The notes beneath the pieces are model-generated. The model did no database searches. It worked only from the letters and a program-made list of their open reading frames with translations, and was not told the DNA's origin. A stretch of DNA of 27,088 bases from a virus. Location of the stretch: positions 1 to 27,088 of the IMG/VR virus record IMGVR_UViG_3300042197_001694. The stretch is one strand, 5' to 3'. Each line of letters starts with the position of its first letter. Within the stretch, counting starts at the first letter, position 1. Both the position numbers and the translations under genes were made by a program. Of this stretch, positions 23,419 through 27,088 are shown piece after piece.

Positions 23419-23688
23419 CTATTTATCAATTTCCATATATATGGATCCATATGATATCTTAACTGCCAAAACATTCCCATTTGCCTCCAGTGTATCTGTT
23501 GGATTCTTTTCTATACTAACTATCTCCCCTTTGGCAAGAGTTACAGTAGCAGTTACAGCACCATCAGCAGAACGTTGAGTTAGTTCAGTGAGGGAGGTGT
23601 TGGTGTTGTGCAGCCTGACTAGGGATGCGTTAAAAACATCTGTTGGGGAATTTAATGGTGTTTCTTCGGATAATAACTTCATTCTCAT
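23419..23688 (-). CDS. Hypothetical protein, 89 aa, first gene of a three-gene set
   Basis: I place the start at the ATG at 23688 because a strong SD (AAGGAG, 23696-23701) lies 7 nt upstream; a longer TTG start at 23712 would put the SD inside the gene. The protein begins MRMKLLSEETPLNSPTDVFN and then forms Thr/Val/Ala-rich strands (ADGAVTATVTLAKGEIVSIE, LAVKISYGSIYMEIDK). It looks like a small soluble beta protein. Its codons are richer in G and C than the baseplate genes. Function unknown. Confidence 0.68.
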   Translation of the reverse strand: MRMKLLSEETPLNSPTDVFNASLVRLHNTNTSLTELTQRSADGAVTATVTLAKGEIVSIEKNPTDTLEANGNVLAVKISYGSIYMEIDK

Positions 23689-23740
23689 AATATAACTCCT
23701 TCTCAGATTCAATATATCATATTTAGCCTATCCAAAAATT

Positions 23741-23794
23741 ATAGGGGTAAAAAAATTTATGGGGGAAAAAAATTTATGGGGGAAAATTTTTACC
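23741..23794. repeat. Three tandem G/A-rich repeats of 17-18 bp
   Basis: Unit 1 (23741-23758) is ATAGGGGT, seven A, TTT. Unit 2 (23759-23775) is ATGGGGG, seven A, TTT. Unit 3 (from 23776) is ATGGGGGAAAA, then TTTTTACC. On the minus strand each unit reads like a C-run followed by ATAAATT or TATAATT. The ends GGTAAAAA and TTTTTACC also form an inverted repeat. They lie about 50-100 bp upstream of the 23688 start. They could be regulator sites, tandem promoter elements or simple-repeat slippage. Confidence 0.8.
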
Positions 23795-25554: not shown

Positions 25555-25583
25555 ATTATACCACAATATTAAAGAACCGTCAA
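25555..25583 (-). promoter_or_regulatory. Sigma70-like promoter with a leaderless start
   Basis: TTGACG (25578-25583), a 17-bp spacer and TATAAT (25555-25560), then 6 nt and the ATG at 25548. Transcription should begin at or next to the A of the ATG. The same geometry is seen at 20207-20235. The -35 box is part of the hairpin at 25574-25600. Confidence 0.72.
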
Positions 25584-25600
25584 ATACTACTTGACAGTTC
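25574..25600 (-). terminator. Hairpin overlapping a -35 box: terminator or operator
   Basis: On the minus strand GAACTGTCAA, a 7-nt loop and TTGACGGTTC form a 10-bp stem with one G-T pair, followed by TTTAAT. It lies 14 bp past the stop of the gene ending at 25614 and could end that transcript. Its 3' arm contains the -35 box of the next promoter, so in DNA form it could also bind a dimeric repressor. Confidence 0.55.
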
Positions 25601-25613
25601 AACTATCAAATAC

Positions 25614-25823
25614 CTAGTCTTCTTGAATAGTTATACTAAAAGATGTGTCATTTCCATCTCTTATCTTAATGGTTCTCTTTTTTGGATTTACCTTACCATC
25701 TTGCATATCAAATTTTATTCTGCTTATATAACTTAAAGACTTCTCTATATTGAGAGTTTCAATCAATAGTTTTTGGATTTTCATAGCAATAGTGTCTGTA
25801 GTAATATCTTTGGATTTTTTCAT
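25614..25823 (-). CDS. Hypothetical protein, 69 aa
   Basis: Starts MKKSKDITTDTIAMKIQKLL, a helical N-terminus, then KFDMQDGKVNPKKRTIKIRD and a closing strand (SFSITIQED). The end is beta-like with a Gly-Asn-Asp turn. The promoter at 25856-25884 is upstream and the hairpin at 25574-25600 is downstream, so it may be a single-gene unit. No SD seen. Function unknown. Confidence 0.6.
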   Translation of the reverse strand: MKKSKDITTDTIAMKIQKLLIETLNIEKSLSYISRIKFDMQDGKVNPKKRTIKIRDGNDTSFSITIQED

Positions 25824-25933: not shown

Positions 25934-26365
25934 TTATAAATGCCCATTTTCCAAAAAACTAAAATAAGAGTCATCAGTAACTATTACATGATCTAGTAGG
26001 GGAATTGATAGCAATTCTCCAATACGTTTTAATTGTTCAGTTACGTTATGATCTTCTTTACTTGGTTGAGTTGAATTTGATGGATGATTATGTGCGACTA
26101 TAATTTTTATCGCACCTGCTATTAGTGCTGGTTGAAACACCTCTCTTGGATGTGCTAAAGTTTGAGTTGCAGTACCAATAGAAACTATATTATATGCAAT
26201 AATTTCATGCGATCCATTTAAACACAGCAGTATAAAATGTTCTTTGGAATTATTTTTTAAGATTTTGGTTCTAATAAAATCAACGACACAGGAAGCCTGT
26301 TTAACTTTAATCGGAGATGTTTTAGATTTTCCATATATAACATTTACTTCTCTTAGATATTTCAC
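25934..26365 (-). CDS. radC: RadC-like JAB/JAMM-domain protein (MPN+)
   Basis: A 143-residue protein made only of the RadC C-terminal domain. The JAMM zinc site is visible: Glu42 in SKEHFILLCL, then His92-x-His94-Pro-Ser96 (AHNHPSNSTQPSKEDH) with Asp105. The LLDHVIVTDDSYFSFLENG segment is also typical. Bacterial RadC is about 220 residues and has an N-terminal HhH-like part that is missing here. RadC-type JAB proteins occur in many phages and plasmids; their reaction is not settled, though metalloprotease-like chemistry is possible. The GTG start has a strong SD (GGAGG) and overlaps the upstream stop by 4 bases (GTGA). Confidence 0.9.
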   Translation of the reverse strand: MKYLREVNVIYGKSKTSPIKVKQASCVVDFIRTKILKNNSKEHFILLCLNGSHEIIAYNIVSIGTATQTLAHPREVFQPALIAGAIKIIVAHNHPSNSTQPSKEDHNVTEQLKRIGELLSIPLLDHVIVTDDSYFSFLENGHL

Positions 26366-26544
26366 GATTCCTCCGTTAAGTGTTTTAATATATTCTCAAT
26401 ATCTTCAATTAATTTATCATCAACTGGTTCTATTAATGGAGATGGATGGTTTCCAGTCTCTTTATATTTTTGGATAATTGCAAGTTGCTCTGCAAGTTCT
26501 CGCAATAGGATGTCTCTTTTAGTAGTGTTCTTTACTTCCGACAT
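26362..26544 (-). CDS. Hypothetical acidic protein upstream of radC, 60 aa
   Basis: I use the ATG at 26544 (MSEVKNTTKRDILLRELAEQ); an ATG four codons earlier (26556) is possible. Either start overlaps the upstream gene. The protein is helical and ends with an acidic helix (DDKLIEDIENILKHLTEE). Its TGA overlaps the GTG of the RadC-like gene, so the two are coupled. No family recognised. Confidence 0.6.
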   Translation of the reverse strand: MSEVKNTTKRDILLRELAEQLAIIQKYKETGNHPSPLIEPVDDKLIEDIENILKHLTEES

Positions 26545-26884
26545 AGTTAAAATCATCTATTGAATTTACTGGTTCTTCTTTTGGTTCCTGAGAGTAAATA
26601 AACAATCCACCCTTCTTACCACGATAAATACTCTGCATAACCAATACTTGATTGTCTTCCAAATTCTCTGGTGACTTTAGATTTAACCTGTCAAACATAG
26701 TTCCGTTTTGTGGGACTGAAGTGTATTGCCCAGTTATTACATTAACGAAGAAGAAGTAGTCACGGCAACCTTCAGACCAGTAGGAATTTAAACACATTCC
26801 TGGTGAGTATTTTCTAAGATAGATTTTCTTACCACGATAACCAAGACTGGACTTTACTACTGCAATTTGTTTTTCATTTATCAT
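26519..26884 (-). CDS. Hypothetical protein, 121 aa, first gene behind the right-end promoter
   Basis: I place the start at the ATG at 26884: an AGAGAGG SD lies 5 nt upstream, while a longer TTG start at 26914 would lie inside the promoter. The protein reads MINEKQIAVVKSSLGYRGKK, then RKYSPGMCLNSYWSEGCRDY, FFFVNVITGQYTSVPQNGT and a YRGKKGGLFIYS strand. YRGKK occurs twice. It looks like a small beta-rich protein with aromatic residues and two Cys. I do not recognise the family. Probably an early gene. Confidence 0.65.
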   Translation of the reverse strand: MINEKQIAVVKSSLGYRGKKIYLRKYSPGMCLNSYWSEGCRDYFFFVNVITGQYTSVPQNGTMFDRLNLKSPENLEDNQVLVMQSIYRGKKGGLFIYSQEPKEEPVNSIDDFNYVGSKEHY

Positions 26885-26904
26885 ATAAACCTCTCTATAC
26901 TCCC

Positions 26905-26933
26905 AGTATATCAATGTATGGTGTGGGTGTCAA
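26905..26933 (-). promoter_or_regulatory. Strong sigma70-like promoter at the right end
   Basis: TTGACA (26928-26933), a 17-bp spacer and TATACT (26905-26910) on the minus strand. Transcription should start near 26898, giving a leader of about 14 nt that holds an AGAGAGG SD and the ATG at 26884. It lies immediately downstream of the 79-bp-period tandem repeats. Confidence 0.8.
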
Positions 26934-26942
26934 TATGGTTTT

Positions 26943-27009
26943 TTGGAAATGTAGAACTGTGTAATATACGAAAAATTCGTAGATGAAACATAGCGGCAGC
27001 AAACATCCA
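26943..27009. repeat. 67-bp direct repeat, copy 1
   Basis: Identical over all 67 bases to the copy at 27022-27088, at a period of 79 bp. Each copy holds an inverted repeat TACGAAAAATTCGTA (here 26967-26981; 6-bp stem, AAA loop) and an AGCGGCAGC patch. The repeats lie 10 bp upstream of the -35 box of the right-end promoter. No credible protein is encoded. Confidence 0.95.
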
Positions 27010-27021
27010 CTGTGTTTAATA

Positions 27022-27088
27022 TTGGAAATGTAGAACTGTGTAATATACGAAAAATTCGTAGATGAAACATAGCGGCAGCAAACATCCA
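27022..27088. repeat. 67-bp direct repeat, copy 2 (reaches the window edge)
   Basis: Perfect copy of 26943-27009; its inverted repeat is at 27046-27060. It is cut by the window edge, so the array may continue or the repeat may be longer. The 12-bp spacer between copies is CTGTGTTTAATA. Confidence 0.95.

Follow-up and report, generated by a model that had tools for sequence, protein, structure and literature searches.

The window analysed here is the whole stretch of 27,088 bp, which is a complete IMG/VR record classed as linear without end repeats. Genes for T4-like myovirus structural proteins (baseplate hub/lysozyme, baseplate wedge, and tail fibre) take up its left part, its right part holds small hypothetical genes, and nearly all genes of the window lie on the minus strand. 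No close isolate is available, the gp5 matches listed from the phage collection being only about 34–43% identical. Related contigs, designated below by G and L numbers, were first gathered by a gp5 protein search, and some of those found in this way are syntenic with the right part of the window, sharing a RadC gene and distant homologues of a gene for a 121-aa protein. The RadC-like gene, at 25934–26365, encodes a JAB domain (Pfam E = 3e-40); G004 and G010 carry it in a syntenic position at about 50% identity. The right-hand end of the record is occupied by a tandem array, which is followed on the minus strand by a predicted promoter and the 121-aa gene (Table 1).

Table 1 Features of the array locus and of a second composite site in the window
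Feature	Position	Strand	Remarks
Perfect tandem array, 79-bp unit, 1.85 copies	26943–27088	−	Non-coding, upstream of promoter, cut by contig end
Stem-loop/palindrome copy 1, TACGAATTTTTCGTA in transcribed sense	26967–26981	−	33 bp upstream of TTGACA; common to related phages
Stem-loop/palindrome copy 2	27046–27060	−	112 bp upstream of TTGACA
Predicted sigma70-type promoter TTGACA-17-TATACT	26905–26933	−	TG before −10; 11/12 consensus
Inverted repeat TATACT-GGG-AGTATA over −10 box and expected start point	26896–26910	−	G005 promoters alike: TATACTTATAGTATA, TATACTATAAGTATA
Gene behind promoter, 121-aa protein	26519–26884	−	No Pfam or PHROGs family
Terminator-like hairpin (25600–25574) and promoter TTGACG-17-TATAAT (25583–25555)	25555–25600	−	T-rich stretch after hairpin

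A preliminary description of this DNA had reported two identical copies at a 79-bp period, a TACGAA-AAA-TTCGTA hairpin in each, an adjoining TTGACA-17-TATACT promoter, and an extension of the copies to the window edge, and our analysis bears out each of these observations. Aligning 26943–27009 with 27022–27088 gave two 67-bp copies that are 100% identical and lie 79 bp apart from start to start, and TRF returned a period of 79, 1.8 copies, a 100% match, and a score of 292, far above those of the other arrays in the window. The second copy ends at 27088, the last base of the record. Because it is broken off there by the contig end, 67 bp does not represent a natural boundary, and the 67-bp unit proposed earlier is corrected to a truncated 79-bp unit. 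As the contig stops inside the array, 1.85 copies is a minimum, and the array probably holds more. Read along the minus strand, the array is followed by 9 bp, the promoter, 20 nt, and the ATG of the 121-aa gene.

Within the window, the palindrome TACGAA-AAA-TTCGTA is confined to the two units, with one in each. Since 5.5% of shuffled 79-bp units contain a 6-bp hairpin, such a hairpin is unremarkable by itself; the features that are not due to chance are the perfect duplication and the recurrence of the hairpin sequence in relatives. The hairpin is weak (−2.8 kcal/mol), has no U-tract, and was not called as a terminator, and thus it is not a standard intrinsic terminator. A coding role for the array was considered and rejected: the minus-strand frames are open throughout, but a period of 79 cannot be divided by 3, so that the frame shifts between copies, and no family matches were obtained.

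The TTGACA-17-TATACT site is among the three top-scoring (11/12) sites in the region from 22 to 27 kb. Its TATACT-GGG-AGTATAGAGAGG segment forms the same inverted repeat across the −10 box and the expected start as is found in the promoters of G005, where sister promoters read TATACTTATAGTATAGA and the homologue of the 121-aa gene is preceded by TTGACA...TGATATACTATAAGTATAGA. The strict form of this promoter occurs 10 times in G005 compared with 0.15 times in shuffles, and the same kind of promoter stands in front of the 121-aa gene homologues of both G005 and G016. This resemblance to a phage promoter family of the relatives supports the view that the promoter is real. Homologues of the 121-aa protein were found only in related uncultured phages, at 37–47% identity, and the neighbourhoods of the gene differ among G010, G005, and the window. 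In many promoters of the clade (at 26896–26910 in the window and in L095, L096, and L097), the −10 box and the expected start are spanned by an inverted repeat, TATACT-N3-AGTATA, which is possibly an operator for early transcription shut-off.

Two other sites in the window were noted. The composite site at 25555–25600 lies about 14 nt past the stop of the gene at 25614–25823, and the 3′ arm of its hairpin contains the −35 box of the accompanying promoter; it looks more like a classical promoter-early stem-loop (PeSL) element, as discussed below, than the array locus does. In addition, a short tandem array (17-bp unit AAAATTTATGGGGGAAA, 3.1 copies, 91% match) is present at 23734–23786, just upstream of the minus-strand gene at 23419–23712.

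The 79-bp unit itself was not recovered from any collection searched, although close neighbours of the window may be missing from these collections. No match was obtained in IMG/VR (exact 28-mer and 21-mer), in GTDB genomes (exact 23-mer), or in 16 related contigs, and phage and plasmid records gave no convincing match, with blastn E-values of at least 0.7. Likewise, no Rfam model of a known structured RNA family matched 26400–27088 up to E = 5, and a tRNA scan found nothing.

The palindrome, on the other hand, recurs in the clade. Among the contigs gathered through gp5, TACGA-N5-TCGTA is present in the window (two sites), G005 (two), the strains G006 and G008, G002, and G004 (two), and at this N5 spacing it is found in none of 68 T4-like loci that are more distant. 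The exact 15-mer TACGAGTTTTTCGTA has 4 independent sites in 0.54 Mb of relatives that were not chosen by motif, compared with 0.002 expected. The copy at G005:58129 lies inside a long ORF, which by inspection is presumably a ribonucleotide reductase; it was counted among the exact copies but not taken as evidence of an intergenic role. When up to two mismatches are allowed, most clade contigs have 1 to 4 sites compared with 0 to 0.4 in shuffles. Scanning 2.9 million viral contigs blindly with the 15-mer gave 76 stretches, a number that a rough estimate places near the chance level for the whole collection; about a dozen of them fall in the small clade, including the newly recovered relatives G011, G014, G015, and G016. 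Contigs fetched through the motif are subject to ascertainment bias, whereas the first, gp5-based set is not. At least two intergenic element sites per contig were seen in G004, G005, G011, and G016, and the window fragment has one such locus. Perfect 6-bp hairpins in general are only slightly above background upstream of promoters, and the case therefore rests on the specific palindrome. In bacterial genomes, a 17-mer search for the palindrome gave 32 stretches compared with an estimated 30 or so expected at random, which looks like chance; several of the contexts inspected look coding, and the palindrome can read YEKLV there.

The recurring palindromes are associated with two kinds of position. 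A stop codon precedes the palindrome by no more than about 10 bp in G004, G014, G015, G016 (two sites), and L315, and the stop codon falls at the edge of the palindrome in G002, G012, and G013; these stop-codon-linked copies have an A-rich loop in the sense strand. The T-rich orientation is found ahead of a promoter in the window, L247, G005:100785, and G011:27904. An extended −10 box is present within 150 bp of the palindrome at 11 of 21 sites, the window included, compared with 7% for positions drawn at random from these contigs. This rigid pattern misses G011:27904 and L247, where promoters are visible by eye. L247 carries the exact palindrome variant of the window in the same orientation and as a single copy, 42 bp before TTGACT-18-TATACTGTAAGTATAGAGA, and it is the closest match to the window. 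In G016, a pair of stem-loops (CTCGTA-AAAA-TACGAG and GGCTAAGTA...TACTTAGCC) and then TTGACA-17-TGTTATACT stand in front of the homologue of the 121-aa gene (47% identical). The first stem-loop is a stem variant in which the pairing is kept, as is TAAGA...TCTTA at G005:99152. Another word, TAAGTAGCTG, also recurs in front of several promoters (L096 near 19070, L097 near 1460, L093, and L198), and upstream of position 3091 in L198 it forms the 9–10-bp stem GGCTAAGTA...TACTTAGCC.

Tandem arrays are also present in sister strains. In G005, a perfect 54-bp unit is repeated three times between genes, just before TG-TTATACT, and L119, which is the same phage from another sample, ends inside this array. 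A further gap contains a 28-bp unit in two copies in G005 and five copies in G006, and a 37-bp unit in 3.7 copies in G008; the 37-bp unit is the 28-bp unit with an internal 9-bp duplication, and the flanks in the three strains are 97.5–99.8% identical. Hence, close strains of the clade differ in the copy number of the non-coding arrays that precede promoters. Different arrays have units without sequence relationship to one another. All three clear non-coding arrays lie in gaps before promoters, and coding sequence makes up about 90% of the genomes concerned. Among 82 records, only the arrays of the window and L119 stand at a contig end, and both were found by routes that select for this. The first 127 bases of L119 (1–730) are identical to L096 (1–127) and are followed in L119 by about 600 bp with no counterpart in G005; the 127-bp start shared by L119 and G005 is consistent with an assembler k of 127 beside a strain-specific insertion. 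As for the break itself, the 146-bp length of the array does not discriminate between assembler k-mers, and the end of L119 inside its array fits no simple k-mer rule.

Several known systems resemble the locus in part. PeSL elements of T4-type phages were reportedly described by Arbiol et al. in 2010 and Comeau et al. in 2014. In PMC4503421 and PMC3950731, they are presented as cassettes that combine a promoter with a stem-loop and are linked to the shuffling of genes. When compared with that account, the locus has a similar setting, namely a T4-like genome with a stem-loop and a predicted strong sigma70-like promoter (11/12, 17-bp spacer, TG before −10) in an intergenic gap among small hypothetical genes, and in relatives the element appears to recur at several loci per genome. 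The differing neighbourhoods of the 121-aa gene would be compatible with recombinational shuffling but are no proof of it. However, the stem-loop of the window is weak, lacks a U-tract, and is tandemly repeated. The suggestion of the preliminary description that this could be a PeSL-related cassette is partly supported, in that the palindrome recurs in the gaps and at the gene ends of relatives, often before promoters of the same type. The locus resembles a PeSL in layout, but its stem-loop is weak and without a U-tract, and we do not file it as a member. A passage of PMC3950731 also describes a promoter-like box with an inverted repeat before many genes of the haloarchaeal myovirus HGTV-1, which is likened there to PeSLs; a conserved promoter-like box with an inverted repeat is common to that motif and the window, but HGTV-1 is an archaeal virus with a TATA-box type motif, and tandem amplification is not mentioned in the passage. 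Intergenic minisatellites of the VNTR type are similar in having perfect head-to-tail copies, and the copy number of comparable arrays in the clade is likewise strain-variable; they differ in that the unit of the window carries a palindrome conserved in relatives outside the array.

Taken together, these results suggest, with a probability of roughly 0.6, that the array is the stem-loop half of an intergenic PeSL-like promoter/stem-loop cassette of an uncultured T4-like myovirus and has been tandemly duplicated. The host RNA polymerase would use the TTGACA-17-TATACT promoter early in infection, and the stem-loop may mark or protect the 3′ end of the upstream transcript or insulate the promoter from read-through, because the same element sits a few bases from stop codons in relatives. 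The gene upstream of the array lies off the contig, and the relation to stop codons is seen in the relatives only. Recombination of the T4 type favours slippage and recombination between repeats, and the array may have arisen and may vary by replication slippage or by such recombination. The absence of the 79-bp unit from every collection searched, the weak hairpin without a U-tract, and the mixed orientation of the palindrome (A-rich loop at stops; T-rich in the window, L247, G005, and G011) count against this cassette, as does the choice of several relatives through the motif itself. A more far-reaching and quite doubtful variant is that TACGA-AAAAC-TCGTA is a clade-specific stem-loop that marks gene ends and promoter fronts, while the strain-variable copy number of the arrays tunes or insulates early expression; the arrays would then be a phage counterpart of phase-variable promoter repeats.

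Almost as probable as an even chance is the alternative that the array is a neutral minisatellite, in which a segment was duplicated by slippage and the second copy has no function, although the palindrome itself may matter. The changes of copy number in near-identical strains, including the nested 9-bp expansion, agree with this, as do the unrelated units of the different arrays and the single copy of L247 in an otherwise similar layout. That all three non-coding arrays stand before promoters argues against it, but weakly, as nearly all gaps may hold promoters. It is less probable, and on balance unlikely, that TACGAATTTTTCGTA is a duplicated operator, a site for a phage or host regulator of the adjacent promoter whose occupancy would be raised by tandem copies. 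A perfect palindrome that occurs in both orientations relative to the promoter, lies upstream of promoters at distances of 11 to about 110 bp, and shows tighter sequence conservation than a stem alone would require is what such a site might look like; however, its spacing to the promoter is variable, many copies adjoin stop codons rather than promoters, and the variation of the stem with pairing kept at G005:99152 and in G016 fits structure over a fixed binding sequence.

The position of the array also raises the question of assembly. De Bruijn assemblers are expected to break at repeats. A contig ending exactly with the second copy, and a sister contig likewise ending inside its array, could mean that the assembler made the second copy or that the contig broke at a unit with further copies dispersed through the genome. 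We consider such an artefact improbable: comparable arrays lie inside the contigs of three strains with differing copy numbers, and L119 shows that a real array, present in three copies inside G005, can yield this kind of contig end. For the same reason, the reservation of the preliminary description that the copies might come only from assembly overlap is unlikely to hold. Its further proposals, an iteron-bearing origin or a terminal repeat of the genome, are by far the least probable readings. Tandem repeats and a palindrome in non-coding DNA by a promoter do resemble some origins, but an iteron origin would combine several short iterons with an AT-rich unwinding region and a skew change, whereas only 1.85 copies of a 79-bp period are seen; the skew profile is undistinctive at the array, which admittedly lies at the contig edge, and a palindrome at several gene ends per genome in relatives is unlike an origin. 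A terminal repeat would place the same sequence at both genome ends, whereas nothing at the left end of the contig matches the array, and the class given to the record is linear without end repeats.

If the reading as a duplicated stem-loop half of a PeSL-like cassette is right, the idea of promoter/stem-loop cassettes would be extended beyond cultured T4-type phages and would take in an uncultured clade that has a conserved stem-loop of its own. Promoter-front segments could then be tandemly amplified, with copy number differing between strains, and this would account for possible breaks of short-read contigs from these phages in gaps of this kind. The 15-bp tag would also serve to recognise members of the clade, as the scan with it recovered relatives outside the loci kept from the gp5 search.
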